Source of the DNA: Halichondria panicea
Lineage: Eukaryota; Porifera; Demospongiae; Suberitida; Halichondriidae
Length of the DNA stretch: 64,000 bases
NCBI RefSeq assembly: GCF_963675165.1
Contig: NC_087391.1
Coordinates: 5,134,646 to 5,198,645, forward strand
Direction of reading: 5' to 3'
Positions 15,084 through 63,925 of this stretch are shown here, piece after piece; within the stretch, counting starts at the first letter, position 1; each line of letters begins with the position of its first letter. The notes below the pieces were generated by a model. It had not been told where the DNA came from. It saw only the letters and a list, made by a program, of their open reading frames with translations, and made no database searches. A program made the position numbers and the translations under genes.

Positions 15084-15871
15084 ATGCCTGTAACAAGAGA
15101 AGATATCACCTACTGCACAGTGACCAACAAGGCAGGCACTAAGCTAGGTCTGACCTCCCTGGGAGCTACGATCACAGAGCTGGTCCTGCCTACAGGGTGA
15201 GCATTTGGTTGGCTAAATATCCAGCAGCTAGCTGGAAGCAGCCACATGCGCTTTGCATGCTTATATAAATTACTATTAAATTCTTGCAGTGTGGATGTTG
15301 TGCTTGGCTACAAAGATGTGAATGGTGGGTTCTGGTAGCTTAGACCTTAGACAATAATTTGTTCATTCGCTCTTGTTCAGTGCAGTGCTGCATGCATTTC
15401 AATCCTGAACTGGCCTCTAGCTCCTGTTATAATAGAATTAACTACTGACTCTCCACATTTTGTACATGCAGACTACAGAACAAATCCCTTCTATCTTGGC
15501 TGTTCCGTTGGTCGAGTTGCTAATCGAATTAAAATGGCTACGTTCGTTTTGGATGAGAAGACGTACCATGTGACAGCCAATGCTCCACCCAACTCACTAC
15601 ACGGTGGCACGGTTGGATTCAACAAGGTATGTACCGCAGTATATGTAGCTATGACTTTTAACAAGATTTTAATCTATTTGTGTGTCTGTAGCTATGTATA
15701 TTTCCACAATGCATACACACACACTGTCCTTGGTATACGTACTTAAACACGTTCCCTAATGCAGCCCCCCACCTCCCCCATACACACACACACTAATCCA
15801 GTTGTCCCCAGGCCCCCTCTACACACACACGCACACACACACGCACGCACACACACACACACACACGCACG

Positions 15872-15911
<40 letters not shown>

Positions 15912-35400: not shown

Positions 35401-36422
35401 GTACAGTAAGTACTATATGAGTGTACTAAATAAGCTAATGTACAGGCATGATATGATAGTTGCAATAGCCCCTCAGTATTGTATTGACTGAGTCCCTGCA
35501 TGCATCCTCTATGTGTACAGTGTTGTCAGCTGACATCAAGTGGGTGCCCCTTGTATTTGACTGAGTACCTGCATGCATGCATCTTTTGTGTGTACAGTGT
35601 TGTCAGCTGACATGAAGTGGGTGCCCCTTGGAGACCAGGCCTCAAGACTGGAGGACGCTAGACCAGTACTCGACGATATTTCATTGCCAAGCTCAACCCG
35701 GTCAGGTGAGGATCCATACGTGTATAGTATACATGTAGCTGGTAGTTAGTCTGCATGGTGGTTGGCTTTCAAAAACTGGTTACTGTGTGTGTGTTTTGTC
35801 ACTGTGATCGACCCACCCCTATTTATTTTGTCAGTAATATTATTTTTCTCTCCTTGCAGGAGGTGGATGTGAGGCTGCTGTGTGTGAAGGGGATCGGACA
35901 AGACCACACCAAGTTCTCTCCAGTTGGTAAGAGCTTGTACTGTGAATTTTTAGGCTTAGTATACGTCCATGCATGTTATTAGTAAAACCAGTAGGATTGG
36001 CGGTGTGCTTGAAGGTGTTTAGAAATATTCCACATTATTTTAAATTGCTTGTGTCAGGCCTGATTTTGATGGTATTGGTCCAACTTAATTCTACCGCAAA
36101 ACTTATGCAGTATGTAAGTGTGCCGATGTGCTTTCTTGACATGCAGTTTTAAATGTACTAGTATACAGAATTTAGTCTTTCCCTATATCTGTTACAATAT
36201 TATTATTACAATAGCTCAATTGTCCCTTGAGAAAATATTAGGTATGTGCATGGTATTCCCTAGACAGACATATAGACAGACAATACCTACCTAAGCCGTG
36301 GACCATATGTACGTATAGTATACAGCTGTATTAATATATATTGGCTTCCACATCCCACTAATTGGCCTTTGTCATTACTTAGTAGTTCAAATAATGACCA
36401 AGTGACAAAACAAAAAGCAACC

Positions 36423-38045
36423 ATGGAAGATTGTTTGAATTATGCTGGTGCTATTAGTTGGTGTGCAGGAGTAACCCAAGATGTTATTCCATGTTCGCAT
36501 TTTAGCATACAGTTTATTGCCTTCCTTATATCGTTTGGCTTGGCTGTGTTTGACACTTGCACTGACTGGTTAGTGGTTGTCAACTTTAAGGACAATGGAT
36601 TCAGCAACCCTCTCCTACCACGAAATGATATTTGGCTAATTATATGGCTCACGTTTGCAGGAATTGGTACCTTTCTGACAGTTGTCTCTATTCTGCATGA
36701 GGGGATAAACTTGTTGTATGCATATTACAACCAGGAACCTTTCGGCGGTTGCTTTAAACGTGGCTGGAATAGTGTCACTCGAAACGAAACACTCAGTGCA
36801 CTTACACTATGGCTTCAAGAGCTTCCCATGCTTGTCCTTGGTATTCTTTTTGTTTACATGCAGCTTTCTTGCAAATCTCCAATACCAATAGATGTCAATG
36901 CCCTTTTTCTGGATATAAGTATTAGCGTGACTGTCACATTTGCAGCTATTTTTTGGAGGCTTATGCGCTCCGTTTTCCGCGTGTATGCTCGTCAAGTCTC
37001 CCTCAAGGACTACGACCAATTTTGGAAAAAAAACAAACCCAAAAGGGATGAGGTTGTTTACCCTCACGCTACGTGTGCCGGAAAGTTTTTAAAGTTGTTT
37101 TATCTCTGCATGAGTTTCGAGGCCATTGCCACGTTGGGAGCACCAATAGCTGTAGGATTCATATGGTTTGAATACGTTCGAAGTGAGAATGGAACTAATT
37201 TTGATGGCTCTCTTGCAATTTATCGTTCTGATCATCCACTCATTAATATTTCTGGGACCGTTATTCCACCAAATGGTACCTTTATTAATTTGGAAAACAT
37301 CAACGACATGAAATTACATAACAGTCGAGATATTTACTGCCTAAGGGGGTTTGAATATCACCCTGAAACTTTTCAGATCTATTTTAATGCAGTCGATCTT
37401 TTTGCAGTGTCTAACAATGCAGATTTTTGTGATGCTGTTGATATAGAAAACGACTCTCAGTGTGATGACTTGTTTCTCTACTATGCATCTAGACCCCCAG
37501 TGTATGATATGTATTTGAACCCGATATATGGTACTGGTGATATTGAAAGATTGGATGAACAGTGCAAAGTTGCTTTCTTTGACTACCCTATTCAAAATCC
37601 CCAATTTAATACAATTGTCAATGTTTATCGCCATCTTGGTCGAACAAACCTTTCTGAGCATGGAGAGCCTGTTGCTGTGTTGTATCCAGATTTGAACCGT
37701 TTCTTTTTAATGGGAGATGTCAAAAGTGCCCCAGATGGAGAGTTTCAGGGAATATTCTCCTCAGTTTTCACAAATATTTCTTGTGTGATCGAACTTCGAT
37801 ACTTGCAGCTGCCGACTACAGGCCGAGGGCAAATACAATACAACTACAGAGATGTCATTAACTACGGAGAAAATAATTGTACATTTAGCAGTACCAACAT
37901 CTGTTCCTCGGTGCACACTGATCTGGTGTATGGCTATCTATCCGACGAGTATAGCCTAGTACAGAACACCCGCTGCTCTAACGTCACTGATAACCAACTA
38001 CGTCCCGTGTACGAACCTTCTATCATTGTACGACTCCCTTGCTAG
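36423..38045 (+). CDS. Multi-pass membrane protein, copy 3
   Basis: Intact single-exon frame of 540 aa from the ATG at 36423, lying between the POLR1C-like exon 7 and 8 copies. Same architecture as copy 1: about five hydrophobic segments in the first 240 residues (FDTCTDW in the first, QELPML in the third), then a Cys-containing, sequon-rich non-membrane region ending Arg-Leu-Pro-Cys. The N-terminal 25 residues and the loop around 36990-37070 (Lys-rich) differ strongly from copy 1, while the last 200 residues are highly conserved. Function unknown; the conserved outer region suggests it is the functional part. Probably a surface protein or channel-like molecule, without firm family support. 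Confidence 0.8.
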   Translation: MEDCLNYAGAISWCAGVTQDVIPCSHFSIQFIAFLISFGLAVFDTCTDWLVVVNFKDNGFSNPLLPRNDIWLIIWLTFAGIGTFLTVVSILHEGINLLYAYYNQEPFGGCFKRGWNSVTRNETLSALTLWLQELPMLVLGILFVYMQLSCKSPIPIDVNALFLDISISVTVTFAAIFWRLMRSVFRVYARQVSLKDYDQFWKKNKPKRDEVVYPHATCAGKFLKLFYLCMSFEAIATLGAPIAVGFIWFEYVRSENGTNFDGSLAIYRSDHPLINISGTVIPPNGTFINLENINDMKLHNSRDIYCLRGFEYHPETFQIYFNAVDLFAVSNNADFCDAVDIENDSQCDDLFLYYASRPPVYDMYLNPIYGTGDIERLDEQCKVAFFDYPIQNPQFNTIVNVYRHLGRTNLSEHGEPVAVLYPDLNRFFLMGDVKSAPDGEFQGIFSSVFTNISCVIELRYLQLPTTGRGQIQYNYRDVINYGENNCTFSSTNICSSVHTDLVYGYLSDEYSLVQNTRCSNVTDNQLRPVYEPSIIVRLPC

Positions 38046-42996: not shown

Positions 42997-45900
42997 TTAA
43001 GTGTCACATTCAGACAATTGTTCTTTAACTGATAAAGCTGTCACAAACGAAGTGAGTAGTTCATTGGCAAGAATACATTTATCGTACTCTTCTTTGGTTA
43101 TACGTAGAGTTAATTCTTCTGAGTCATCACATTCCTCACAAGAGTCGCCACCCTCACACACATCAGCCACGCCACCTTGTTCAAAGCTCGTCTCTTCGTT
43201 AGAATTCAATAACTCAGGGGCAGATTCTGAAACCACTCCTATTTCCGGTATAGGATTCTCCGACAAATTTGTTATCATTTTCTCTCTCCACATTTGTCTG
43301 TTTTTGTTCACCACGGAGGCTACATTGCTTTTTAGGGTAGTAAGGTACGTTGCTATGGAGGTAGCAACATCATCGCTGGTAGCATCACCTGATCCACTCG
43401 CCACTACCTATATACAGAACACAAGGGAGTGGGTAAGTCATAACTACACCAGTACTGTTGAATTTGTATCAGTTGAAAGGTCTTCTTCGTAAGAGCTATA
43501 TTTACAAATTGTACATAGTAGGTGAAGGGAAATTGGGATGACATTGGCAAGTACACAAAATGGAATACACCAATGAATACAGTTAGTATATATATGTGTA
43601 GCTTGCAACTGGCTTAAACATTGCTTCCCCTAAACACACCTGATCGTGCAGCTCCATCAGAGCTCTGAAGTTAGCATCCAGACCATCAGTAATGGAGCTA
43701 AGCCTGGCCCTCACATCACTGTCAGAGTCTGGAGATGGTGGTTTCTTGTTGGCTCTTGGTTTAATTGACACAGTTTTCTTACTAACAGACGAGGGACCAC
43801 CACTGGCAGAGGGAGGAGCATCACTAACAGAGGGGGGACCATCACTGGCAGAGGGAGGAGCATCACTAACAGAGGGGGGACCATCACTGGCAGAGGGAGG
43901 AGCATCACTAACAGAGGGGGGACCATCACTAGTAGACGGGGGACCATCACTACCAGAGGGGGGACCATCACTGGCAGGATGGAGAGGTGGGGAATTGTCT
44001 AGTAGCTGCTCAACACTAGGGGAGGGGGATGGTTCAGTTGCTGTGACAATCTGTTTCCTGCTCTCCACAGAATAGCCAAGCTGTGGAGTGAGAAAGAAAA
44101 CATATTGGTCATACGTAGTACATGCATTTGTACAGTATATATACATGTACTACGGCCTAAGGGCTACAACAGTAATTGTACAGTACATAAAAGCACCTCC
44201 ACCAGCTTTTGCCTTGTTTTAGCAACGTCTGTCTCAAAACTGAGCCTTCTTTTCATCTGCACCAAGGACACATGAATCATCATCATGTATCACCAAATTT
44301 ACCTACCGATTTATCTGTGTATTCAATCTTGTGTGTCACAGTATCCACAGCTGCCGCAATGTCTGCAGACTCAGCTCCTCCGTCTAGCAGGGCCATGGGT
44401 GTAGTCTGACTGTCATCCTGGGGTTGGTCCGCGGGACTGGTGCTGTCCTCGACAGAGATTACTATACCAGCTGCCTCGCTGAGAGGAGGGGATTCCCCTA
44501 ATCCCACCTGGCCACCATCACCGACATGTATTACTTTTCTAGAGAAAATGATAAACAAAATAAATGTTGAGAGTATTGAAATTCACAGGAATTTGTCTGC
44601 ATGCATGCATGTACACTACATTAGAAAGTGTATCCATAATTATCGACAGCTGCATAATTTCCATCTTACCGTAGGGTCTCTTTGAACTTTGCAGAGATGC
44701 TTTGTCGGGGACTGGGTACTTTGAGCAGCTGAGGGTCTCCCGATTTCTCCAAGCTTTCAAAGTGTGCCTTAAGGAAAGAAGATTCTTCTTCCTCCAATAT
44801 CTTGTTGAGGGGTACGGGGGAATCAATGGGGGACTCTCTAGGGCTCTCTGTGGGGTGTGGGTGAGAGGAGTGAGGGTGTGTGAGGAGTGGGGTGTGTGAA
44901 GAGTGGGGGCGTGTGAGGGACAAGTATACGTAATGAGTGAGTGCACAACATATGTACAGCTAACAAACATGATTTACCATCATCTTCACTTTCGTCCTTT
45001 GTGTCCGAGGGTTTAATAGGTGTGGTAACACAGAAAATGCTATAATACAAAAGGTCAATAATAAAGAACACAAACTTTAGAGCGTACCTTGGGTCTATTT
45101 CGTCACTCAATGATGATGTATAAAATTTGAGGACATCCGAACCATCAGAACTCTTTGACTCATTGGCCTCCTCAGTCACATGACCTTCATTGTCAATCAC
45201 GTGACTATCAGGCAACACATTCTCATCATCATCCTACATGTGCCAAAACAACGATCATTATTATTACACACAAAATTTTAGCATAATAATTATAATAATT
45301 GGAGCCTGTACGTGTTACAACAAGATAAATACACAATGGGTTGTGATAAAATCCATAGCAACACAGCTGTATGTACGTTTAATAATACCCTGAGGCCTAC
45401 CTCTGTGAGATCAATGACTTCCGTGACACTACTCTGTTTCTCAAAAACAATCCGAGACATTTCAGAACTTAGATCCTCCAGATCAACATCAGAATCTGTG
45501 GAACACAACACAATACAACACTTCAAGTGCAGCTGTGTAAGTACCTTGCTCTTGAACAGCTAGCTTCAATTCTTCTCCTGCCACTCTCTATAGAAAGAAA
45601 AAAACGTGCAACATTACATAACTATTGATAAGAAAGTTTTAACGTACATATGTACTAGTTGAAGCTGTCCATGCAGTTTAGACTACATGCATGCAGACAC
45701 ACCATGAGAACATATATACGTGTATACTCCGTCATAGTAACAGTTCGCCACACCCACCCCCTCACCTCTGCCCATCTGCCCTCCACTGGAGCAGCCATTT
45801 GCTCCGTACCCTCACCAACCCCCACAGAGGGGATTCCCCCAACAGCCTCCCGCTGTGCCCACGAGGGAAGCATGCTCATTCGATACTCAAAATCCGGCTC

Positions 45901-48361: not shown

Positions 48362-49540
48362 ATGAACAAGAATCGTCAGATCAGAAAACCTGGGGGAGAG
48401 TATTTGGAAGTGATAGCTGAATCCAATCAGATAGATGGAGGAAGCAAAGAACGACCACTGAGTGCTGTTAGCGATGAGTATGTGGAGATACACGATGACA
48501 TACGTTCTCATGCTAGCCTCGAACCACTCCATACCTCTCCCGGTGAAAGCTACGATGGATATCTGAAGAATCCAAAGGAGCAAGGCCACAGAGTGACAAT
48601 CCAAGACAACTGTGCCTACAATGCAACCGTACAGATAAGAGAGGAGACAGCAATTTCAGGAAGAGGGAGAGTGATACAGTCTAATAGTCTGTACGAAGAG
48701 ATCCCTGACAGAGCAGCTGTTGAGAGTGGTATTAGCCAGGCCACAGTTAGTCAGCCAAGAGTGGACGCAGAGGGTCAAAAAGAGAGCAAAAAGATCATTT
48801 CACCAGGAGAAGCACTCTGGAGTTTCTGGCAAGGCAAAGCAGAGATTGCTATCAGAATCACCAACCTAGCTGTAAGCTATACATGTATTACTTTATACGC
48901 CTTCAACTATACACACACACACACACACACACAGCTGGGGGCGGTAATTTTTCTGCTGCTATTCGCAATCATTGTAAATGCGGGCCGTATTTACGGGACC
49001 AGCCTAGGCACCGACCTGAGTGCCCGCTACACACCCACCCCTACCTTCGCCACTATTGCCAGCTGGATGCTCATGCTGACATTTGCCGGTACAACAGAAG
49101 TGTTCCTATTCATTGCTAGAGTGTACGTCACCAAGGCTACGAAATGCATTATGATTTGGGTAAGACACAACATATATACCACTACACTAAAATAAGTTTT
49201 CTTTATCTGTTTTCTTATACAGGACATTGTACACAGCGTTATTCTGTATGTTGTGTACTTGATATTGTGCTTTCAAATGATATGGTTAGCAACAGATTGG
49301 ACTATTTTGCTCCCCATACCTCAAGCAACAGCTGAGATCAATGGGGAAATAGGCCTGCTTGCTACATGCTCAGTGAGTCAATGATGTACATGTATGCACA
49401 GTTATTACTATCTACTCATGATGTAGATCTTGGGCTTCGCTTATGCCGGGTCATACATGCTCAAAGCCAGCTGGCTTATTGCATTCATACGGCAAGACTG
49501 GGAGAAGAAAATGGACGAGTACAGAGTGCAGTCACAATGA
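48362..49540 (+). CDS. Tyrosine-motif tetraspan protein 1
   Basis: Four exons (48362-48871, 48935-49159, 49223-49372, 49427-49540), all phase 0, give 332 aa. There is no signal peptide. Residues 1-165 are hydrophilic with tyrosine motifs: EYLEV (Y14), EYVEI (Y40), YDGYL (Y64/67), NCAY (Y86) and YEEIP (Y111), the textbook Src-family SH2 ligand if phosphorylated. Then comes SFWQGKAEIAIRI and four hydrophobic segments: one at the start of exon 2, one late in exon 2, one in exon 3, one in exon 4. The N-terminus is predicted cytosolic. The family is not recognised; an SH2/PTB docking scaffold or receptor subunit is my inference. It is the most diverged member of the cluster. Confidence 0.8.
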
Positions 49541-49732
49541 TGCAGTCATGCACAATGAAAGAACTGTTGCGTCTAGTATAATATTATACAAAATAAGAAT
49601 GTGTTAATTATTATGATGTGATCACCCATGTTGATGTTGATACATACACAGAACACATACAAGGGATTTCTTATACTTATAAAGGCAGAGCTAATGACAT
49701 TAAAATTAATCATCCCCGAGGCCCCCCACAAG

Positions 49733-49752
49733 CTGGCAAAATAGTATAAATA
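49733..49752 (+). promoter_or_regulatory. TATA-type core promoter of tetraspan 2
   Basis: GCTGGCAAAATAGTATAAA, with TATAAA at 49745, lies 50 bp before the ATG. The same string occurs at 52159-52177, 50 bp before tetraspan 3. The conservation stands out within the two upstream regions. Confidence 0.6.
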
Positions 49753-49794
49753 CTAATCAGCTATCTTACTTAGTTAGTGTGACTTACTACAGCC

Positions 49795-52027
49795 ATGGAT
49801 GCAACAGAGACCACCGCAGCAAGCACAAATGGACGACTTATAGTAGAGGAATGCGATCAAGTTGATAATCTTAAAGTTGTCAAAGAGACAGACAGACACT
49901 TAAGCGGCAGTCCTACTCCCAGTGAGCAGTCATATGTTGATTTCGACCAAGTAAATAACGAATATGTTGTCAATGATTTGGATTCGTACACCATTGAGCA
50001 AAACTGTGCCTACATGTCCAATACTGATATTAACGATCAACCGCCCGACTATCTGGAGGTCATAACAACTCAACAAAACAGCGCCTACAGTATTGAGGCC
50101 AGCAACGTCTACTGTGTGGCAGACCCTGTTGTTGCTGGACATGAGAATGGTGAGCTGTACGAAGCAATACCCGAGGAAGGAGAACTCTACGAAGTACTCC
50201 CAGAGGGAGGAGAGCGCTACGATTACGTACTACCTGTACTACCAGAGAGGAGAGAGCCTACCGGAGTAGTATCACAGAGGGGAGAGCAAAACAACGCAGT
50301 GCAAGAGAGAGAAGAGGATGCTAAGAAAAAAGTTACACCCCCAGCCCAAGGTCTTTGTAGTTTCTGGCAAGGAAGGGTGGAGGTGACTATACGAATTATC
50401 ATTCTATTGGTAAGTCCCTGTATATTATTATATAGGGAAACCAACATGCAGTGGCTGTAATAGAGGTGGCCAGCTAACACAGTTAATAATGGATACCCGG
50501 CTGTATAATTATCAAGTGCTTATAAAGAGAATATAACTTTTCTTTATAAGCCCTTGGATGCACGTGTATTTATAACACTAGCTGTATGTATACAGTGTAA
50601 TACTTATGCACCACACAGCTGGGACTGCCCCTGCTATTGCTGCCCATATCAGGAGCTGTTGGTTTGGCCAGTTTCTCAACCTCTGGCGGTATAATAACGC
50701 TGGTCACAGGAATACTATGGCCCATACCACAACTTGTGGTGAGCTGTTGTTTTGAGCTGCCTATGCTACTGGGTAGAGTCTGCTCCAAAAATATCTCCAA
50801 CTGCTTTCTAGCATGGGTGAGTTACTCCAGCTATATAATAGTAATAGCAGTTTACATTCACTTGACTATAACTACACAATGGCTGGTATGAGCTATATAT
50901 AGCAATTTCCTGTATAGTGACTTCAACTTCACACACATGCAAGTATTAATGGGACTCTACCCAGACATAATTATAAAGGCTCTCTTTAGTTGCATGGCTG
51001 CACGTTGAATTGTGACATCTCTATAAAAGTCTGGGTAGGGGAACCTATAGCTATAGCTACATAGGCATAATTATATTACATATTAAAGTGAACTGAGGCA
51101 TGCACAATACAATAGAGGCCAAATTAAAGTTTCTTGCAGTGTCTATACGCAAACAGAACAGAAACTTTAATTTGGCCTCATAGCTGCATGTACATGTAAT
51201 AATAATTCTACCCACAAACACATGCAGGACATTACACACAGCTGGGTACTGTTCTTCATCTACCTAATAGCCTGCGGGCAGGCCGCTTGGATCACTACAC
51301 TGTGGTCAGGTGATTTACACAGGGCTCAGAGCAATGATACGAATCAGAGCAATGTTGGGGGACTACAAGCAGGAGTTGCTATCTTTGTTGTTCTCACAGT
51401 AAGTACAAAACACCTCTATAATAGTGAGCATAAAGAATGCACACATGTCATGTTAATCAGTAGTGGAGTCCCTATAGCACACACAACACTGCATACGTAC
51501 ATGGCTGTAAGTATATATAATTATAGGCTAATCTTTGTTATGTATTAGCAGTACCAGCACAAGGATATGAACCTACTTATTGCTGATTGCGTTTGTGTCA
51601 TACTGTTTGCCATGTATATATATAATGAGATTCATTATTGGAATTGGAATGAGTTTATTACACAAATCATTATCTAATGGACCAATCAGATTGCTACCAT
51701 GCACTCATAAAGCAATGCAATCTAATATGGTGGTGGGTGGTGCTTCAGGTAATACCATCCAGGTATATATACATGCACGATTGATATTACTTATATATAG
51801 GCATGTATTGTACTCCTTTGACGTCTGATCACAATTATGGCAATTACATGCCGGTGATAGCCTGTACATAGTAGCTTATTTATTATAATGCTCTTGTCCC
51901 TTCTATATAGGTGCTGTACTTCATACTTGCAGTCCTGTACCTGTTCAGGGCTTGCTCGGTTATAGCAGCCATTAAGAGAAAACGTGATTACAGAAATAGA
52001 TCCATGGCACTCACTCAGAGAACTTAA
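49795..52027 (+). CDS. Tyrosine-motif tetraspan protein 2
   Basis: Exons 49795-50409, 50619-50816, 51228-51398 and 51911-52027, all phase 0, give 366 aa. The tail of about 190 residues carries SYVDF (Y47), EYVV (Y57), NCAY (Y73), DYLEV (Y86), NSAY (Y98), YEAIP (Y122), YEVLP (Y132) and YDYVLP (Y142/144), then SFWQGRVEVTIRI and four membrane segments. Exon-to-domain layout is the same as in the other members: tail on exon 1, TM1-TM2 on exon 2, TM3 on exon 3, TM4 plus a short basic tail on exon 4. It looks intact. Predicted plasma-membrane docking protein for SH2/PTB-domain partners (inference). Tetraspan 3 is a recent duplicate. Confidence 0.8.
51111..51181. repeat. Hairpin in intron 2 of tetraspan 2
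   Basis: GAGGCCAAATTAAAGTTT and its exact complement are separated by about 33 bases. The same hairpin is retained at 53900-53966 in tetraspan 3. Candidate transposon remnant or intronic RNA structure. Confidence 0.85.
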
Positions 52028-52084
52028 CATTGTAGCAATAGAACATGAGATAACCCCTATTAGGGTGCACTATATACTTTATTG

Positions 52085-52109
52085 CACACACACACACACA
52101 CACACACAC
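52085..52109. repeat. Short CA tract, parent site of the giant CA tract
   Basis: About 12 CA dinucleotides between TATACTTTATTG and TTAATGGTTCGC. The identical flanks enclose 559 bp of CA at 54878-55436. Confidence 0.9.
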
Positions 52110-52171
52110 TTAATGGTTCGCATGCACGTTAACCCAAATATGCCAATGTAAACTGGCAGCTGGCAAAATAG

Positions 52172-52177
52172 TATAAA
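52172..52177 (+). promoter_or_regulatory. TATA box of tetraspan 3
   Basis: TATAAA inside the conserved GGCAAAATAGTATAAA string, 50 bp before the ATG at 52222, the same spacing as in tetraspan 2. Confidence 0.6.
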
Positions 52178-52931
52178 AACACTATTTTAGTCCATGAGAC
52201 CATACAAACAATACAACAGTCATGGATGCAACAGAGACTACCGCAGCAAGCGTAAATGGACAACTTATTGAAGAGGAATATGATCAAGTTGATAATTTTA
52301 AAGTTGTTAAAGAGACAGACAGACACTTAAGCGGCAGTCCTACTCCCAGTGAGCAGTCATATGTCGATTTCGACCCAGCAGATAACGAATATGTTGTCAA
52401 TGATTTGGATTCATGCAGCATCGAGCAAAACTGTGCCTACATTTCCAATACCGGCATTAATGATCAACCGCCTGACTATTTGGAGGTCATAACTCAACAA
52501 AACAGTGACTACAGTATTGAGGCCAGCAACGTCTACTGTGTGGCAGACCCTGCTGTTGCTGGACATGAAAATGGTGAGCTCTATGAAGTACTACCAGAGA
52601 TGGGAGAGCGAACCCAAATAGTACCACAGAGGAGAGAGCAAAATAACGTAGTGCAAAAAAGAGCAAAGAATACTATGAAAAAAGTTCCACCCCGAGGTCT
52701 TTGTAGTTTTTGGCAAGGAAGGGTGGAGGTGGCTATACGAATTATCATTCTAATGGTAAGTCCCTGTATATTATAGGATATAAGAGGTGGCCAGCTAACA
52801 CAGTTAATGTGGATATCCTCCTGTATCAAGGTATTATAAAGAGAAGAGGAAATGCATCTATATAGGTATATCGGTACTCAGCTAAATTTATATATATCAG
52901 AGGCAGGATATATATAATTCAGTACTTAATG

Positions 52932-53214
52932 TAGCCTCAAGACCAGCCGTTCGTTACCTGAAAGAACGCCTGGTCAAGTTCCAATATAAAACTCGTTTAG
53001 CTGAGTCAGCGAGTGGTTAGGCTTGAGTAGTTGTGAACATGATTGCGGTAACCGCAACCACAACAATACTATAGCTAGCTGCATGTTACTGGAAGCATCA
53101 TAATGATGTTCACGGGCAAGTATGGTTGTTGTGGGCAATTACCGGTCCTGGACCAATTAGACAAGTTCTACATTGGAACTTGACCAGGCATAACGAACGG
53201 CTGGTCTCGAGGCT
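52932..53214. mobile_element. hAT-like MITE in intron 1 of tetraspan 3
   Basis: 283-bp element with inverted ends (TAGCCTCAAGACCAGCCGTT at the left; the complement of the right end reads AGCCTCGAGACCAGCCGTTC) flanked by a perfect 8-bp duplication ACTTAATG (52924-52931 and 53215-53222). An 8-bp target duplication is typical of hAT elements. Tetraspan 2 lacks it. No coding capacity. Confidence 0.9.
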
Positions 53215-53899
53215 ACTTAATGGTTCTGCATGCATCTATAATAATTATAGCATTTTGTGTGGGCAGGAAGGTCTAAAAACAGAAACCATGCACAATAATT
53301 TTGTTGAGTTTGAGAATTAGTCTGAGTCACTGCCCTCTTCTCTTTATAAGTCCTTGGCTGCATGTACATACGTAGAGGGTGATCGCATGCACACGAGTAT
53401 TTATAACAACTAGCTGTATACAGTGTAATACTTATGCACCACCACAGTTGGGACTGCCCCTGCTATTGCTGCTATTGCTGCCCATATCAGTGCTGCCCAT
53501 ATCAGGAGCCATTGGTTTGGTCAGCTGCTTAACTTGTCTACCACAACTTATGGTGAGCTGTTGTTTTGAGCTGCCTATGCTACTGGGTAGAGTCTGCTCC
53601 AAAAATATCTCCAACTGCTTTCTAGCATGGGTGAGTTACTCCAGCTATATAATAGTATTAGCACTTCATATTCACTTGACTACACTTTTTAACTACACAA
53701 TGGCTGGTATGAGCCTGTATAGTGACTTCGACTTCACACACATGCAAGTATTAATGGGACTCTACCCAGACATATAAAGGCTCTCTTTAGTTGCATGGCT
53801 GCACGTTGAATTGTGACATCTCTATAAAAGTCTGGGTAGGGGAACCTACATAATTATATTACATGCATATAAGTGAACTGAGGCATGCACAATACAATA

Positions 53900-53966
53900 G
53901 AGGCCAAATTAAAGTTTCTTGCAGTGTCTATACGCAAACAGAACAGAAACTTTAATTTGGCCTCAT
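53900..53966. repeat. Hairpin in intron 2 of tetraspan 3
   Basis: Same inverted repeat as at 51111-51181, unchanged after duplication. Confidence 0.85.
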
Positions 53967-54876
53967 AGCTGCATGTACATGTAATAATAATTCTACCCAC
54001 AAACACATGCAGGACATTACACACAACTGGACACTGTTCTCATCTACTTAATAGCCTGTGGGCAGGCCGCTTGGATCACTACACTGTGGTCAAGTGATTT
54101 ACACAGTGCTCAGAGCAATGATACGAATCGGAGCAATGTTGGGGTACTACAAGCAGGAGTTGCTATCTTTGCTGTTCTCACAGTAAGTACAAAACACCTC
54201 TATAATAGTGAGCATAAAGAATGCACACATGTCAAGTTAATCAGTAGTGTAGTCCCTAGCACACACAACACTGCATACGTACATGGCTGTAAGTATATAT
54301 AATTATAGGCTAATCTTTGTTATGTATTAGCAGTACCAGCACAAGGACATGAACCTACTTATTGCTGATTGCGTTTGTGTCATACTGTTTGCCATGTATA
54401 TATATAATGAGATTCATTATTGGAATTGGAATTGGAATGAGTTTATTACACAAGGACCATTATCTAATGGACCAATCAGATTGCTACCACTCATAAAGCA
54501 ATGCAACCTAATATGGTGGTGGGTGGTGGTGGGTTAGGTAATATCATCCAGGTATATATACATGCATGATTGATATTACTTATAAATTATAGGTATGTAT
54601 TGTACTCCTTTGACGTCTGATCACAATTATGAGCAATTACATGCCGGTGATAGCCTATACATAGTAGCTTATTTATTATAATGCTATTGTCCCTTCTATA
54701 TAGGTGCTGTACTTCATACTTGCAGTCCTGTACCTGTTCAGGGCTTGCTCGGTTATAGCAGCCATTAAGAGAAAACGTGATCACAGAAATGGATCCATGG
54801 CACTCACTCAGAGAACTTAACATTGTAGCAATAGAACATGAGATAACCCCTATTAGGGTGCACTATATACTTTATT

Positions 54877-55438
<562 letters not shown>

Positions 55439-55599
55439 AATGGTTCGCTGCATGCACATTAACCCAAATAATATGCCAAAGTAAACTCACAACTCTTAGA
55501 AGTGGGTGACTTTAATTAGCACCATTCAACCAGTGCCGTGTAGGATAAGTACATTCAAATATGGCGGAACCTATTACACACATCATCGGACACAACATA

Positions 55600-55825
55600 C
55601 CGTATAGCGCGAAATTTTCGAGGGGCTTAATTTTCGTGGATTTCGTGGGTTAGCAATCCTACACGAAAATTAAGTCCACGAAAATCGTTCTTTACCTGCT
55701 ATAACGTGCAAGATTTAAAGGCGTGGCTTCCGGTAAGCAGTCATTCCGCGAACATTGTGCAACGAAATGGCTTTTAGAGGCCAATCCACGAAATATAAGT
55801 GCCTCGAAAATTTCGCGCTATACGG
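55600..55825. mobile_element. MITE family 1 copy upstream of tetraspan 4
   Basis: 226-bp copy of the element at 32899-33126 with the same CCGTATAGCGCG ends. The region upstream of tetraspan 6 (61205-61330) is homologous and lacks it (ACACAACATATAGGATG), giving a second empty site. Confidence 0.95.
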
Positions 55826-55931
55826 TATATAGGATGTACAATAAGGGTTTTTTTTCGAGCAGTCATACACGTAATAGGTCACCACATTTACTAGCAAGCA
55901 CACAAGTTCATGCTTCTCATAGAGAGAAGCC

Positions 55932-57630
55932 ATGGAGATAGTTAACAACTGTTCTGACGGTGTCAACACACAAAGACAGATCAGTGAAACAGGCAGAGAG
56001 AGTGAGATTGTTGAAGATGTTGCTTCAGAAACAAATGTTGACGTCCAAGAAAATCCTGCATACAATTTCAGAGCTAACAATGCGAGTGTTGAGTGTGGGG
56101 ATGGGGGAGAGTACGAAGTGGCTATGTACGGTTTCACCAATATCCCAATCGAGCAAAATCCTGCCTACAAAGTGCACAGTACCGGACGGTTGGATGAGGT
56201 CAGTGACAGTGGTCAGTACGAATTAGTCATCCCTACGGAGTCAGCTACAAATGTGATTGTCCAACAAAACCAGGCTTACAACATAATTACTACACAGCCA
56301 GCAACTGATTGTAATTATGAGGAGATCCCAGAAAATACAACCGAGCAATTTTATGAAGAGATTCCTGTGCAACAAAACCATTTGACACAAGTCCCTGGGA
56401 AAGTAGCGACACCTGTTCCGCTATTGAAGGCTACCTGTAGCTTCTGGCAAGACAAAGCGAAAGTGGCTGTCAGAATAACTATCTTAATGGTAAGATTGCG
56501 ACAGCATATTTTAAAGCATGCCTAATATATAGGCTATAATAATCATAGGAAAATGCAACCAAGAGCATTCAGTAGATTTTAGGGAGCTCTATAGAATTTA
56601 TAAGACCGCACATACACAGTTAGTAGAACACAAACACACACACACTCCACCGCTGCAGCTCGTATCTCTACTGTTGGCACTATTCATTTCATCTGATGGT
56701 CTGGTTTTCACAGCTACAGTAATTGAGTATTCTTCATTGCCACCTCTAACACTAATCATAGGGACAATTTTTCTAACCCTTTTGCTTCTTGGAGTCATCA
56801 TGGAAATAGCACACCTCTACATCAGGACATGCAGGAGAAGAACAACCAAATGTTTCCTCGCGTGGGTACGTATAGGATGATTGGTCGGTACATAATGTCG
56901 GTACATTATATGCATGCAGTACATAGATTTACCAAAGAAAGATAATAATTATGTATATGCATGCACTGTATTCCATCACACACCATACGTCATAATAGCT
57001 ATTACACTGCTTATGCAAACTCTATACACCAACACACACCACACACACAGGACATTATATACTCTTGCGTAACGATCTTCTCCTCACTGGTGTTCCTCGG
57101 AGCATCCATTGGGCTAACTGTACTATGGTCTACAATCAATCATCTGGTGGAGGGATACATCTTTTTGATCATAATCACGGCAAGTTAATCAACGAGAGCC
57201 TTTTATATACAGGCCTCATAATAATTATGTATATATAATTATATGCACTGTATTCCATCATAAATATCATTTCCTATAAGCATGCAAATAATTATTGTAC
57301 ATTAATTAGCTCACTCCTGATTCAAACTTCATACACACACACACATGCACAGCTGGCTAGGACACATTAATAATCAATTATAGCTTTCTGGTATTACACA
57401 TTAATAATCAAGCTATATATACACAGTAAAAACACATAATAATGTTATATGGGATGCATCATCGTATTTTAGTGTTAAAATGACAGAAATTCGAATCTGT
57501 TTTTACTGTGTAGCTTTCTGGTATTACACATCATTTATGATTCCTATATATGCAGGTGCTGTGCTTCACACTTGCAGTCCTGTACCTGTTCAGGGCTTGC
57601 TGGATTATAGCGATCATTAAGATCAAATGA
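55932..57630 (+). CDS. Tyrosine-motif tetraspan protein 4
   Basis: Exons 55932-56489, 56659-56865, 57051-57179 and 57556-57630, all phase 0, give 322 aa. The tail has NPAYNF (Y44), EYEVAMY (Y61/66), NPAYKV (Y79), QYELV (Y96), NQAYNI (Y116) and two YEEIP sites (Y129, Y141), spaced 12 residues apart. Then SFWQDKAKVAVRI and four hydrophobic segments. NPAY fits PTB-domain ligands and YEEI fits Src-type SH2 ligands by family knowledge. Intron 3 begins with GC (GCAAGT) where the paralogue at 60813 has GTAAGT, so it uses a rare GC donor or splices poorly. Otherwise intact. Confidence 0.8.
57378..57545. repeat. Hairpin flanked by a direct repeat in tetraspan 4 intron 3
   Basis: ACACAGTAAAAACA and its complement (TGTTTTTACTGTGT) enclose about 65 bp. 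The hairpin is flanked by TAGCTTTCTGGTATTACACA at about 57381 and again at about 57511. Probable small inserted element with a tandem-duplicated flank. Confidence 0.7.
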
Positions 57631-57758
57631 GATCAAAGAAATGGACCCCCCCCCCCCAGAACTTAACATTGTAGCAATAACACTACCTTCTTGAACACAT
57701 GCACACACTTCACACACTTAATTAATGGTTCTATGCACATTGACACAATTATGTAAGC

Positions 57759-57964
57759 TACCATATATTTATGCTTGTGAAAAACTTTTACGAATCAGCC
57801 AAATTAGCAGAAAATGTTGACCCTCTGCGATCTAACTATTGCGTTCTGGCAAGGATCGTGTGTACTAATTTAGGTTTTTCAATTTTATTTTTGCGAATGG
57901 ATAAACCCTCGCAAAGTTCGCATAATTATGTTTGATGCTCGCAAAACATTCTAGTAATACGGTA
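57759..57964. mobile_element. MITE family 2 copy downstream of tetraspan 4
   Basis: Shares AAACATTCTAGTAATACGGT and CTAACTATTGCGTTCTGGCA with the element at 41076. The left end is degraded (TACCATATATTTATG). Non-coding. Confidence 0.85.
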
Positions 57965-58495
57965 ATATCTCCTGATGCAATGTAAGCTCAAAGAAGTGGG
58001 TGGTTGTGTCTAGGCAACTTTATATAATAGTTGTATAATCAGGTGAAACCTATATCATGTTTTACACATTATTTTTACCAAATATAGAGGAACTTATACT
58101 ATACACATGCACCAGTTGCAGGTGCTCCTGATTACACATCCTATACTTGTACCATGATGTGCTCTGACACTAAGGAATATCCATTGAAACTCTCAGGATA
58201 CTCCAGGGTACAAATCCCATGTACCCTACTATAGGGTGTACATTCATATACCCTAGGGTACATTGGCTTGTTTGTGGTGAGCCTAAAGCCCACCATCCAC
58301 CCTTAAAGGGCTCTCTCTTTTATACAAAACTACTGTGAAACACTTGATCAAATTGTGAGAATCAATTGTTCAGTATCCACAATAAAACTACCCGACCCCA
58401 TTGGAACTGAGGTGTGAAGTTGTAAATGTGGTTTGTAAAGTGCAAGCACAGCACATAAAATGTGCACAGTGCGCATGCACGGCAGAGATCAAAGC

Positions 58496-58918
58496 AGAGG
58501 AGGTCGGACATCACTTGAACTTTCACTAATTATGACCTTTTAATGACATTCCAGGCCAAATTGCTTTTCGTTTTTGCTGACTCAGCGTAGCGTCTACTGT
58601 ACTTCGCTAGTCTCTATTTTAGCCGCCCTCTAAAAGTTGGGCGGCCTACTCACGAGTCTATGTTATAGAGGGCGACTGATTCATGAGACAATATTCTGCA
58701 CGGTTTCTGTCGCTGAATCTATTGACAGCTAGTTGTGTTTGGTGTCTGTGATGGTTACTGGACCTAACCCTATCAGCACATAATACCTATACTAGCTAGA
58801 TCCGCCTAGATCTAGCCATGTTCTACTGCTGAGTCAGCAAAAACAAAAAGCAATTTGGCCTGGAATGTCATTAAAAGGTCATAATTAGTGAAAGTTCAAG
58901 TGATGTCCACCTCCTCTG
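58496..58918. mobile_element. Foldback element with arms of about 90 bp
   Basis: The left arm (GAGGAGGTCGGACATCACTT through TTGCTGACTCAGC at 58588) is nearly perfectly complementary to 58829-58918. The central 240 bp include a smaller GCCGCCCTCTA hairpin. No coding capacity. Confidence 0.9.
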
Positions 58919-59021
58919 AGATCAAAGAGTGTTTACTACTACTCAGTTGTAAATGGGTTGGATAACAGCTTCTAATCAATATGTGTTCATAGCACAAGCT
59001 ACCTGTACCATGCATATCTGT

Positions 59022-59104
59022 GTGTGTATTGTTATTGTACTACCTCGAGCAGTTCTATGTATCCCTCGGCCGGGGAATACATAGAACTGCCCTCGGTAGT
59101 ACAA
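59022..59104. repeat. Near-perfect hairpin
   Basis: GTACTACCTCGAGCAGTTCT through ATGTAT pairs with ATACATAGAACTGCCCTCGG through TAGTAC; the loop is GC-rich (CCCTCGGCCGGGGA). Probably a short foldback element. Confidence 0.85.
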
Positions 59105-59134
59105 ATCCAATACATCCTTGATATCCATGGTACA

Positions 59135-59275
59135 ACTATTACATGTCATATAACAATGAAGGGTGTTTCGCTCCCATCAGATTCAGTATTGCACTCCTGG
59201 TCTAACCTGTTAGCTCACTATAATTACACTGAATCTGATTAGTAAAGTACCCTTCATTGTTTTATGACATGCAGG
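59135..59275. repeat. Second inverted-repeat element
   Basis: ATGTCATATAACAATGAAGG and AGATTCAGT at the left pair with ACTGAATCTGATT and CCTTCATTGTTTTATGACAT at the right. It directly follows the hairpin at 59022. Confidence 0.8.
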
Positions 59276-59413
59276 ATGTGTGTAACCAGGAGACCTGCTG
59301 GTGTAGTATAAATTCCCAGAAATTGGTTAGTGCAGAATGTGTGGTTCAATGGTTGTGTGGTGTTGGGAATACTCCTGCATGATTAGACTCACAGAGACAA
59401 GCTAAACTAAGCC

Positions 59414-61099
59414 ATGGAGTTAGTTAACAACTGTTCCTACGATGTCAACACACAAAGACAGATCAGTGAAACAGGCAGAGAGAGTGAGATTGTTGAACAT
59501 GCTGATACAGAAACAAATGTTGACGTCCAAGAAAATCCTGCATACAATTTCAGAGCTAACAATGCGAGTGTTGAGTGTGGGGATGGAGAAGAGTACGAAG
59601 TGGCTGTGTACGACACAAATATCCCAATTGAGCCAAACCACGCCTACAATGTGCACAGCACCGGACAGTCGGATGAGGTCAGCGAGTACGAATTAGTTAT
59701 CCCAGTAGAGCCACTTCCGAGTTTGATTTCTCAACAAAACCATGCTTATAACATCGATATTACAGAGCCAGATGACACTGCATCTGTTGGTAGCTACGAG
59801 GAGATCTCAGAAAATACGAGATGGGTTTCAAAAAATGCGACTGAGCGATATTATGAAGAGATTCCTGCACAACAAAACTATCTGACACAATACCCTACTG
59901 AAGAAGAAGCAACTGTTCCACCATTGAAGGCTATCTGTAGCTTCTGGCAGGGAAAAGTAGAAGTGGCTGTCAGAATAACTATCCTAGTGGTAAGACAACT
60001 GTAGAACATAATTATTATGCCATTATTTACACGACAAAGGAAAACCCACAAAGACCATACACCATGCATGCACACACTTCTACCAATGCAGCTGGCAATT
60101 CTACTGATGGTGCTATACATTGCATCAGCTGGTCTGGCAATCATCCCAATTACTGGTCGGTTTTCATCGGCTCCTCTCACAACACTGATTATAGGAGGAA
60201 TTTTCCCATTCCAATTTGCTTGTGTAATTATCATGGAAATAATACACCTCTGCATCAGGACACGCAGGAAAAGGACAAGCAAATGTTTCCTCACATGGGT
60301 AAGGTACAGGCTATACGGTTACAGCGTATACATACAGCAAACAAACTATATATCTCTATTCATTGAGTGACTGACTATATACATCTGCGCATGTACATAC
60401 ATTGAAATAGCTATTATTGATACCCTCATCACATCACACTCTTATTGGGTGTACAATGTTCCAAAGTGAAGGCTTCGGGTAGCTTTGGAAAGCACATAAT
60501 CATGTGTGCTGTAGGGTAAATAAAAAAAAGTTGGCCAGTTTTGGGTATAGCTTCGCGAATTAAGTTCAGGAAGGCTTTCTTGAAATGTGAAACCAAAAAA
60601 AGCCTTAACCTTGTGATGTCAAACAAGTGTTCATTAACTTCGCAAATTTTGTTTGCCAACCTACCATAACACACACACACACACAGGACATTTTATACTG
60701 TTTCATGACAAGCTTCTTCTCACTGGTGTTCCTCGGAATATCAGCCTGGCTAACTGTAGAGTGGTCTATAACGAGTAATCCAGTAGAATATTTCCTCTTC
60801 ATTCTAATCACAGTAAGTTAATAACCTTACCTCCAGTTCCTACACAAAACTACTATTATTATAACATAACATCTTCTTCTAGCTTGGAAATAACTAATTT
60901 GCTAATGATTCAAACCTCACGTATTGTAGGCACATGCATGCACTCACACATTCAAGACAATCTTTTTGCTATCACACAATAAATGGCTGTAATTCCTACA
61001 CAGGTGCTGTGCTTCATCTTCATGGCTCTGTACATGCTCAGGGTTTGCTGGATTAGGGCAACCATTAGTATGAAGTGGGATTCAAGAATGGAAATATAA
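59414..61099 (+). CDS. Tyrosine-motif tetraspan protein 5
   Basis: Exons 59414-59989, 60092-60298, 60687-60812 and 61004-61099, all phase 0, give 334 aa. Tail motifs: NPAYNF (Y44), EYEVAVY (Y61/66), NHAYNV (Y78), EYELV (Y92), NHAYNI (Y112), SYEEIS (Y128) and YYEEIP (Y146/147). The juxtamembrane SFWQGKVEVAVRI, four hydrophobic segments and a short C-terminus follow. It is closest to tetraspan 4, with complete exons and standard GT-AG introns; exon 3 uses a CA-microsatellite acceptor. Predicted function as a phosphotyrosine docking membrane protein is inference from motif content. Confidence 0.8.
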
Positions 61100-61365
61100 A
61101 CCAAGGAAAATGAAAAGTAGTAAACAGCCTAGATTCGTAGCAATTACAATTTAACGCACACACACGTTGCACTATACTTTATTGCACACACACACTGTAT
61201 CTAACACCATTCAACTAGGATAAGCTAGTACATTCAAATATGGCGGACCTATTACACACATCATTTGACACAACATATAGGATGTACATGCAATAAGGGT
61301 TTTTTTCAAAGGTCACCACATTTACTAGCAAGCACACAAGTTCATGCTTCTCATAGAGAGAAGCC

Positions 61366-61888
61366 ATGGAGATAGTTAACAACTGTTCCTACGGTGTCAA
61401 CACACAAAGACAGATCAGTGGAACAGGCAGAGAGAGTGAGATTGTCAACAATCTCAGAGCTAGTGTTGACCGTGGGGATGAAGGAAAGTACGAAAATGTT
61501 GTGTACAACTTCACTATCGATCGAGCCAAACCACACCTACAATGTGCACAGTACCCGACAGTCGGATGAGATCAGTGAAAGTGGTCAGTACGAATTAGTT
61601 ATCCCTACGGAGTCAGCTGCAAATGTGATTGTCCAACAAAACCAGGCTTACAACATCATTACTACACAGCCAGCAACTGATTGTAATTATGAGGAGATCC
61701 CAGAAAATATACAACCAAGCAATTTTATGAAGAGATTCCTGTGCAAAAAAACCATTTGACACAAGTCCCTGGGGAAGTAACAACACAAGCCCCTAAGAAA
61801 GTAACGACATCTGCTCTACCATTGAAGGCTATCTGTAGCTTCTGGCAAGGCAAAGCGGAAGTGGCTGTCAGAATAACTATTCTAATGG
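61366..61888 (+). pseudogene. Tetraspan 6, exon-1 remnant
   Basis: Begins like tetraspan 4 (MEIVNNCSYG) and ends with SFWQGKAEVAVRI and a GTGAG donor, but the frame breaks at least twice: near 61520 (bases lost before the NHTYN motif) and near 61710 (extra bases before the second YEEIP-equivalent). About 60 bp around the first NPAY are deleted. No exon 2-4 follows; instead the sequence continues into DNA homologous to the region downstream of tetraspan 4. A 5' fragment joined to unrelated flank. Confidence 0.85.
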
Positions 61889-61889
61889 T

Positions 61890-62160
61890 GAGATTTAGGT
61901 TTTGCGATTTTATTTTTCCTTGTAAAGTTCGCATAATCATATTCGATGCTCGCAAAACATTCTAGTAAAACAGTTGATGCAATGTATATATAGGCTCAAA
62001 GAGGTGGGTGGTTGTGTCTATAATAGGCAAATTTATATAATAGTTGTATAATTAGTGGAAACCTATATTATATCATGCAAAAACAATAATTATTGGGGAA
62101 CTTATATACTACATGCATGCACCAGGTGCTCCTGATTACACATCCTATAATTATATGTCA
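61890..62160. repeat. Duplicated flank of tetraspan 4
   Basis: Homologous to 57880-58140, including the end of a MITE family 2 copy (CTCGCAAAACATTCTAGTAA) and GGTGGGTGGTTGTGTCTA. It shows that tetraspan 6 was created by a deletion or recombination joining exon 1 to distal 3' flank. Confidence 0.8.
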
Positions 62161-62461
62161 TATATTTTCTGTTACACTTGCGTATTATATCGCACACAAA
62201 GGCCCGTTTTCATCTATACACGTACTATACTAGTTACTTTGCTTACACGCATCAGCATGATTGAATCCAATTAAGATAATTAAGTAAATCATTGCAAGCT
62301 TGCGTGCACACGAACAAAAAATGATTGTTTTGCCTGCGTGCAACACAATCAAAACAAACACAGAGTACTACACAATTTGGCCTGTACTGTAGGAGGTGGG
62401 TGGTTTTTAACAAGATTGCTGGCATGCATGGTAAGATATCTTAAGATTGGAACCTAGTACC

Positions 62462-62777
62462 GTATATCAAGTTTCGAATGCATAACGTTCTTCAAATTCA
62501 ATCGGAAAAAAGACGCAAAGAGTGAGCATGCACATGCAATTCGAAACGCAATCAGATTTGTACAGTGTCACTTGCATTCGAAACCCGATACATTACTAGG
62601 ATGTTTTGCGAGCATCAAATACATGCGAACCTTGATCAATTCGCAGCAATAAAATCGCAAAACCTACTAGTAAATACACACAATCTTTGCCAGAACACAA
62701 TAGTTAAATTGCAAAGGGCTGCTGATTTGGCTCATTCTCAAAGGTTTTTCACAAGCAAAATATTCTAGTAATACGAT
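62462..62777. mobile_element. Small inverted-repeat element followed by a MITE family 2 copy
   Basis: GTTTCGAATGCA at 62470 and TGCATTCGAAAC at 62573 bound an element of about 120 bp. Immediately after it (62592-62777) is a MITE family 2 copy in the opposite orientation to that at 57759 (TTACTAGGATGTTTTGCGAG at its left end). Confidence 0.75.
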
Positions 62778-62912
62778 ATACGGTATACATATCATCTAAA
62801 ACAACAAATACTTGACGTGCCAATATAGGGGAGTTATTTAACTCCCACTTGCAGAGCAGTCAGTCATAGCCACATTTACTAGTATAAACACACAGACTTA
62901 TAGAGACAAGCC

Positions 62913-63530
62913 ATGGAGATAGTTAACAACTATTCTGACGGTGTCGGTACACAAAGACAGATCAGTGAAACAAGCAGAGAGAGTGAGATTGCTGAAGATG
63001 CTGTTACAGAAACAAATGTTGACATCCAAGAAAATCCTGCATACAATTTCAGAGCTAACGTTGAGAGTGTTGACTATGAGAATGGAGAAGAGTACGAAAA
63101 TGTTGTGTACAACTTTACAAATATCCCAATCGAGCCAAACCCTGCCTACAAGGTGCACAGCAACAGGCGGTTGGACGAAGTTAGTGAGTACGAATTAATC
63201 ATTCTTACAGAGTCACCTGCAAATGAGATTGTCCAACAAAACCAGGCTAATAACATTATTACTACACAGCAAGGTGATACTGCATCTGATTATAGCTATG
63301 AGGAGATCCCAGAAATTTCGACTGAGCAATTTTACCCAGAGCAACAAAACCCTTTGACACAAGCCCCTGAGGAAGTAACGACACAAGCCCCTGAGGAAGT
63401 AACGACACAAGCCCCTGAGGAAGTAATAACGACACAAGCCCCTGTAACGACACCTGTTTCGCCATTAAAGGCTATCTGTAGCTTCTGGCAAGGCAAAGTG
63501 GAAATAGCTGTCAGAATAACTATCTTAATG
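62913..63530 (+). CDS. Tyrosine-motif tetraspan protein 7 (partial, exon 1)
   Basis: Open exon of 206 codons ending at a GTGAGA donor; exons 2-4 would lie beyond the window. Tail: NPAYNF (Y44), DYENG (Y55), EYENVVY (Y61/66; pYENV fits the Grb2 pYxN rule), NPAYKV (Y79), EYELI (Y93), YEEIP (Y129) and FYPEQ (Y141). The site equivalent to NQAY has become NQAN, losing its Tyr. A PEEVTTQA repeat (four partial units, 63355-63445) lengthens the stretch before SFWQGKVEIAVRI. It looks intact as far as seen. Confidence 0.75.
63355..63445 (+). repeat. Coding repeat in tetraspan 7
   Basis: Three to four copies of a 24-bp unit (GTAACGACACAAGCCCCTGA plus GGAA) encode TTQAPEEV. The frame is kept. Tetraspan 6 has the beginning of the same repeat. 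Confidence 0.9.
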
Positions 63531-63574: not shown

Positions 63575-63925
63575 ACCTATAGGACTACTGAAGTGCTAAA
63601 CCCTTGGCAGTTTTATGTCTTACAACCAGAGTGTTCTACAAAATTAATTATGTATAAGTAACTAACATGCAGAGGGCAAATATACATATACACTATACAA
63701 AAGACACTGAATCAGATTTGAATGCTATGACAAGGCTTTGAAACTGCATGCAGTGGTGCATGTCTGGCTAACATCAAAATTAAACTATAATAACTTGTTG
63801 TGTATAGATTGAGGCTATTCATGCTGTAAACGCAATGGCAGCCAGGTGAGCATGACTCAGAATCACACACAGACCAGGTGACTATACTATAACCAATGGC
63901 CACCGATGCGCCTCGGGTTAAAAAG
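63575..63925. repeat. Diverged relative of the 21.5-22.5 kb foldback element
   Basis: CTGAAGTGCTAA, TAATAACTTGTTGTGTA, CATGCTGTAAACGCA and GCCTCGGGTTA occur in the same order as in the left arm at 21500-21880. It lies in intron 1 of tetraspan 7. Confidence 0.7.

Follow-up and report, generated by a model that had tools for sequence, protein, structure and literature searches.

A tandem family of predicted four-pass membrane proteins with tyrosine-motif tails in the sponge Halichondria panicea, some copies bearing an ITAM consensus

The best-known cases of ITAM-Syk signalling are vertebrate immune receptors, and the ITAM consensus reads [DE]xxYxx[IL]x6-8Yxx[IL]. FcRβ (MS4A2) is a four-pass protein with its ITAM at the C-terminus, Draper is a single-pass protein, and LAT, PAG, and NTAL are single-pass adaptors with many SH2-docking tyrosines on a C-terminal tail. 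In the available excerpts of the literature, Draper/MEGF10 are described as carrying NPxY and an ITAM on one tail, which is written by Src and read by Shark or Syk (PMC8092387). The invertebrate ITAM cases described in these excerpts are Draper (PMC8092387) and the oyster Ig receptor CgIgIT2, a single-pass protein with five Ig domains (PMC11999971). CD37 is presented as a tetraspanin with ITIM-like and ITAM-like tyrosines and tails of 8-14 residues (PMC7765243). Syk-family kinases are reported to occur in sponges (PMC9601881, PMC9486129). Within the excerpts returned by our literature search, no sponge ITAM protein is described, and a separate search for a sponge family with NPXY tyrosine phosphorylation gave no paper.

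The window, i.e. the whole stretch of DNA analysed here, comprises 64,000 nucleotides of the genome of H. panicea, the breadcrumb sponge (Demospongiae, Suberitida; 131 Mb, 39 contigs), and corresponds to C15:5134646-5198645, C15 being the contig that carries it. Seven adjacent units, A to G, share one exon plan at 48362-63530 (Table 1), and the original prediction was right about both their coordinates and their anatomy. A, B, D, and E are complete within the window, C and F are broken, and G extends past the window end. With the flanking DNA included, ten intact four-exon genes were modelled (A, B, D, E, G, H, I, J, K, and L), their exon boundaries being placed by eye and then checked by script. 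H, I, and J extend the array downstream (C15 5202-5208 kb), while K and L are located about 92 kb further on, on the minus strand (C15 5300-5310 kb). Since its exon 3 lies approximately 5 kb away from its exon 2, the K model may combine parts of two copies. Loose exon pieces were also found, namely an extra exon 4 at C15 5208593-5208685 and an exon-1 piece at C15 5300431-5300484. Whole-genome protein searches (E up to 10) pointed to C15 only, among the matches listed. Model J is identical, letter for letter, to isoform X2 of NCBI LOC135348569 (301 residues), a Halichondria panicea protein labelled "uncharacterized".

All introns of the ten intact genes are in phase 0, in agreement with the conserved exon phases noted earlier, and the splice sites are GT-AG except for a GC donor at intron 3 in six genes (D, G, H, I, J, and K). 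The claimed long tail on exon 1, given as 165-205 residues, was found again; where exon 1 could be read (six copies: A, B, C, D, E, and G), it encodes 170-206 residues. The SFWQ juxtamembrane block is present as well, with the variant RTWQ in K and L. Diversification by tandem duplication, proposed from the outset, is supported.

Table 1. Features of the array, with positions counted from the start of the window.
Feature	Position	Strand	Description
Gene A	48362..49540	+	332 aa; exons 48362-48871, 48935-49159, 49223-49372, 49427-49540; open model, GT-AG, phase 0
Gene B	49795..52027	+	366 aa; exons 49795-50409, 50619-50816, 51228-51398, 51911-52027; open model, phase 0
B paired motif YEAI-x6-YEVL	50158..50199	+	ITAM spacing, without acidic -3 residue; loose pattern, shuffle P 0.028
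Gene C	52222..54820	+	copy of B, frameshift in exon 3
Gene D	55932..57630	+	322 aa; exons 55932-56489, 56659-56865, 57051-57179 (GC donor), 57556-57630
D canonical ITAM consensus DxxYxxI-x8-YxxI	56307..56363	+	residues 126-144; shuffle P 0.00095
D NPAY	56052..56063	+	second NPAY 56157-56168; NQAY 56268-56279
D SFWQDK juxtamembrane block	56439..56456	+	precedes membrane segment 1
Gene E	59414..61099	+	334 aa; exons 59414-59989, 60092-60298, 60687-60812, 61004-61099; two YEEI, longer spacer
Remnant F	61366..61887	+	exon 1, frameshifted
Gene G exon 1	62913..63530	+	206 aa; exons 2-4 beyond window
G alternative exon, intron 1	63808..63845	+	AG/GT-flanked; codes twelve residues of the divergent end of NCBI isoform X4 (P0008)

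The most divergent copy is A, which contains one YEEIP and has P0015, P0016, P0017, and P0019 as its closest protein records, while the relatives of B are P0020, P0022, and P0023. Gene C is likely a pseudogene, judging from its frameshift. Among the best candidates scored between F and G, no exons 2-4 belonging to F were found. P0008 (NCBI isoform X4) starts with the same 206 residues as exon 1 of G, and the alternative exon accounts for this isoform, which would consist of the tail and a portion of segment 1 and lack the other helices; a role as a decoy is possible. Several repeat elements lie among the genes. An identical hairpin-like element of 65 nt is located in intron 2 of both B (51115-51179) and C (53900-53964), and an unbroken CA repeat of 558 bases (54878-55435) follows directly 3' of gene C. 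A fold-back element with 81-nt arms that are 99% complementary lies between D and E (58506-58908), and smaller ones are found at 55597-55828 and 59025-59114.

Elsewhere, the window contains two tandem LRRK-like genes (385-14752), each with an ankyrin exon followed by a giant LRR-Roc-COR-kinase-beta-propeller exon; Pfam was run on the first copy and the second was assigned by its similar translation. They are followed by an aldose 1-epimerase gene (15351-17869; PF01263 on the last long frame). Tandem copies at 23072-24670, 29944-30983, and 36276-38045 encode similar proteins that look multi-pass, and Pfam gave no match for the two copies scanned. An open frame on the minus strand (43583-44149) encodes tandem SDGPPSxSD-like repeats. 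Rfam gave 0 matches within the window.

Hydropathy analysis reveals exactly four membrane segments after a hydrophilic tail in each of the ten intact proteins. The four segments of the original prediction are thereby confirmed, but not their placement entirely on exons 2-4. Segment 1 straddles intron 1 and is thus not wholly encoded by exon 2; in D it spans residues 178-196, while exon 1 ends at residue 186. Across the ten proteins, loops 1, 2, and 3 contain 0-2, 2-6, and 0-1 lysine and arginine residues, respectively, and the C-terminus contains 3-8. Loop 2 and the C-terminus, which form the predicted inner side, together carry 7-10, versus 0-2 outside. Because these residues are concentrated in loop 2 and the C-terminus, both termini are predicted to be cytosolic in all ten proteins, on the basis of hydropathy and charge bias. 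The charge rule depends on the loops and the C-terminus, as the tail itself is acidic (net charge -6 to -28), and the signal is weak in A, where loops 1 and 2 tie with two such residues each. The predicted outer loops comprise 10-30 residues, the second extracellular loop 11-24.

An extracellular tail was considered and rejected. N-glycosylation sequons in the ten tails are at chance level (0-4 versus 0.9-2.6 expected), and hydropathy found no hydrophobic segment within any of these tails. In B, two sequons in the second outer loop fit the predicted topology, whereas one in a loop predicted to be cytosolic counts against it. The cytosolic tail proposed earlier is retained as a prediction for ten of ten proteins, none of which has its tail placed outside the cell. 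AlphaFold2 models of J reached a mean pLDDT of 47 (single sequence) and 54 (12 rows, mostly exon pieces). In both weak models, four long helices (approximately 148-186, 194-223, 229-263, and 266-300) follow a tail that is poorly defined and mostly below 50 pLDDT; this N-terminal tail is probably disordered. Fold-search matches obtained from these low-confidence models were taken as meaningless; no MS4A, tetraspanin, or MARVEL proteins are among the fold matches listed, which at such confidence excludes nothing.

Tail motifs were compared with 2000 shuffles per tail in six tails (A, B, C, D, E, and G); the per-tail tests are not independent, since the copies are related. YEEI exceeds the shuffles in four tails, with one copy in A (p 0.008), two in D (p 0.0005), two in E (0/2000), and one in G (p 0.016), and is absent from the tails of B and C. 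NxxY shows p<0.05 in five of the six tails, C being the exception (p 0.13), so that the repetition of both motifs described in the original prediction is upheld. NPxY reaches p<0.01 in D and G and 0.06 in E, and is absent from A, B, and C. The suggested docking of Grb2 via YxN finds no such backing, as this motif is not enriched in any of the six tails, with 0 copies in five and two in G (p 0.20).

A feature absent from the original prediction is the strict ITAM consensus in two of the ten tails, D and J, in a part of the protein that is cytosolic by prediction. Among 14 further records scanned, P0003 and P0012 carry it too. In the seven tails that were shuffled, the strict consensus arises in 0.1-0.6% of shuffles (P 0.001-0.006), and other open frames, taken as background and totalling 58,501 residues, contained no strict match and 15 loose ones. 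The loose pair (YxxI/L, spacing 6-12) occurs in six of the ten tails (B, D, H, I, J, and L) and is weaker evidence than the strict ITAM, with a shuffle P of 0.018-0.053 (1.8-5.3%; seven tails). Specifically, I and the relatives P0002, P0004, and P0007 contain YxxI-x8-YxxI without the acidic residue at -3, and B and P0020 contain YxxI-x6-YxxL. A five-residue spacer separates the YEDI and YEEI motifs of H. By reading, G, K, and L lack the second isoleucine (the K and L version reads YEEQ) and A has a single YEEI. The ITAM of D and J probably reflects one event, given that the two genes are 97.5% identical over 1531 bp, and later losses in other copies may have followed, as all copies are relatives.

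Candidate signalling partners are encoded in the same genome, in which 74 exon-level matches to SH2 and 10 to PTB domains were found, neither figure being a gene count. Five selected loci (L063-L067) were read. L066 is Syk-like: its kinase is preceded by two SH2 domains, the second of which has SYK as best match (E 2e-35). L064 follows the Shark plan SH2-ankyrin-SH2-kinase; two SH2 domains were matched, the ankyrins were assigned by reading, and the kinase piece matches tyrosine kinases, with EGFR as best match. L063 resembles SHP2 (SH2-SH2-phosphatase), with PTPN11 as best match of the second SH2 region (E 1.7e-55) and the phosphatase assigned by reading. Also by reading, L065 is PLC-gamma-like and L067 is an SH2-kinase of the Src type.

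The searches for relatives, of which the one with the ten family members scored the 8000 candidate proteins sharing most words, found 27 records in all. The two that are named are both from Halichondria panicea, and most others are very similar, with P0019 being distant; used as a query, P0019 found itself only. No relatives were found in the prokaryote genome collection, and exon 1 of B had no match in phage records. In the data searched, the family thus appears confined to H. panicea and close relatives, a restricted distribution that agrees with the lineage-specific family postulated earlier. That no named family was recognised also holds, as Pfam returned nothing better than E 0.07 for the ten proteins, and four proteins run separately all remained below the cut-off. 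Sub-threshold Pfam matches, including DUF7775 (A only, E 0.07), presenilin, RIFIN, and WLS, were taken as noise, as were the NCBIfam matches, each found in one of ten members (best E 0.0043). MARVEL, claudin, and other four-pass Pfam profiles are absent from the matches of the ten proteins and of the four run separately.

Taken together, we somewhat favour a lineage-specific family of four-pass membrane phosphotyrosine adaptors, some copies of which bear an ITAM. The sequence supports the anatomy, the topology prediction, the motif excess, and the partner genes; any sensing role, like clustering, docking, and the action of kinases, is inferred. That the strict ITAM is confined to two of the ten tails counts against this reading. 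Conservation bears on it in both directions. Tail dN/dS is 0.35-0.73 (nine pairs printed, eight D-L genes), while the membrane exons span 0.25-1.15, with 1.15 for D-H and 1.09 for H-J; D and J are nearly identical there. L is placed differently in the tail and membrane trees, its tail grouping with H (support 0.77). The near-identity of D and J and the conflicting L trees point to exchange between copies. Several exon-1 variants among P0002-P0014 are unlike every copy in this assembly, and P0010 appears by eye to be a J/H-type start fused to an E-type end; we take these variants to reflect copy-number or allelic variation together with exchange. Compared with the other residues of the tail, tyrosines show no significant excess of conservation in the D-L clade (p 0.12), nor in six of seven deeper comparisons (A-P0019 0.09, B-I 0.11, four-sequence deep set 0.12, A-P0017 0.24, B-P0022 0.37, A-I 0.59). 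The best test is A-B, with four of six tyrosines conserved versus 22% of other residues (p 0.03), and tyrosine flanks show no significant extra conservation in three of three pairs (p 0.13-0.63). Relaxed dN/dS, inter-copy exchange, and these weak tests would suit a fast-evolving family that serves some other purpose (as a channel, in permeability, or in organising membranes), its tail being a weakly constrained, acidic, disordered linker over which motifs were spread by duplication. This is unlikely, because YExIP is invariant in A, P0017, P0019, and B, whose tails align poorly over most of their length, and, with an N..Y pair, belongs to the few invariant columns; YEEIP is found again in D, E, H, and I. 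Furthermore, motifs are enriched over shuffles and a canonical ITAM is improbable by composition. We regard the conservation of tail motifs as suggestive.

The motifs could also be sorting signals: NPxY/NxxY and YxxPhi would direct the endocytosis of a four-pass cargo or carrier protein through clathrin adaptors and PTB domains, and phosphorylation would play a minor part or none. Many PTB domains are described, in the excerpts available, as favouring unphosphorylated NPxY (PMC3507883), and NPxY alone is consequently no proof of phosphotyrosine docking. The ten tails carry 3-5 YxxPhi and 2-4 NxxY each, and the PTB matches in the genome would provide readers. Such sorting tails are nevertheless somewhat unlikely, as YxxPhi is not clearly above shuffles (p 0.05-0.40, six tails) and YEEI is, in four. 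Acidic residues at +1/+2 and isoleucine at +3 are the preference of Src SH2 rather than of AP-2, and the YEEI residues fit the former. A true, distant homologue of the MS4A-like proteins (CD20/FcRβ) is suggested by phmmer against PDB, where FcRβ is matched by J (E 0.003) and D (E 0.009). The match is tempting because FcRβ is a four-pass ITAM protein and a tetraspan immune signalling subunit. It disappears when a profile of all ten members is used, and PF04103 (MS4A) matches none of the ten proteins at E<=10 and nothing at the cluster with exons scored apart. The four segments and predicted cytosolic termini of all ten proteins are an MS4A-like trait that is common to many unrelated families. 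The match is also out of topological register: segments 2-3 of the sponge proteins align with what we take to be segments 3-4 of FcRβ, and the aligned loop, presumably extracellular in FcRβ, is cytosolic by charge in the sponge proteins. MS4A homology is hence unproven and highly improbable; in the excerpts available, a published survey reports only short similarities in invertebrates and concludes that these lack MS4A genes (PMC2826416).

For the favoured phosphotyrosine adaptors, the four helices would anchor the protein and perhaps cluster it or pair it with ligand-binding partners, while the long N-terminal tail is predicted to face the cytosol. Src-family kinases would phosphorylate the tail tyrosines, whereupon SH2 proteins would dock at pYEEI/YxxI sites and PTB proteins at NxxY sites. 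By analogy with ITAM receptors, copies with paired YxxI/L (strict in D and J, without acidic -3 in B and I) would engage the tandem-SH2 kinases Syk and Shark. A, H, E, G, K, and L, which lack one arm or the spacing, would signal in another way or dampen the response. Tandem duplication and inter-copy exchange would keep reshuffling tails and membrane parts. A possible but tentative extension is that Halichondria evolved ITAM-Syk/Shark signalling subunits of its own, built on four-pass proteins with no relation to any immunoglobulin/Fc receptor family and diversified by an exchanging tandem array for self/microbe sensing or engulfment. A sponge protein with canonical ITAM and NPxY would supply a candidate ligand for sponge Syk/Shark and would open the age of ITAM signalling to direct testing. 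In addition, it would demonstrate that an unrelated four-pass scaffold can carry a tail of tyrosine motifs and that tandem duplication can diversify such a tail.

Each of the described systems shares some of these features. CgIgIT2 is likewise an invertebrate membrane protein with an ITAM, but single-pass and with five Ig domains. CD37 is four-pass with ITAM-like tyrosines; its tails are far shorter, and the ten sponge proteins have neither a match to the tetraspanin profile PF00335 nor a large second extracellular loop. LAT, PAG, and NTAL resemble the family in their small ectodomain, long multi-tyrosine tail, and cysteine near the membrane, and differ in being single-pass with the tail at the C-terminus. 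The tail of D has NPxY and an ITAM, as in Draper/MEGF10. Those receptors, however, are single-pass with EMI/EGF ectodomains, for which the ten proteins have no Pfam match, their four segments and short outer loops being unlike Draper/MEGF10. FcRβ is also four-pass with cytosolic ends, which are predicted in the sponge proteins; here the motifs lie on an N-terminal tail of 148-189 residues instead of the C-terminus. By analogy, the sponge family may work like the tails of FcRβ or Draper/MEGF10, and is filed in neither family.
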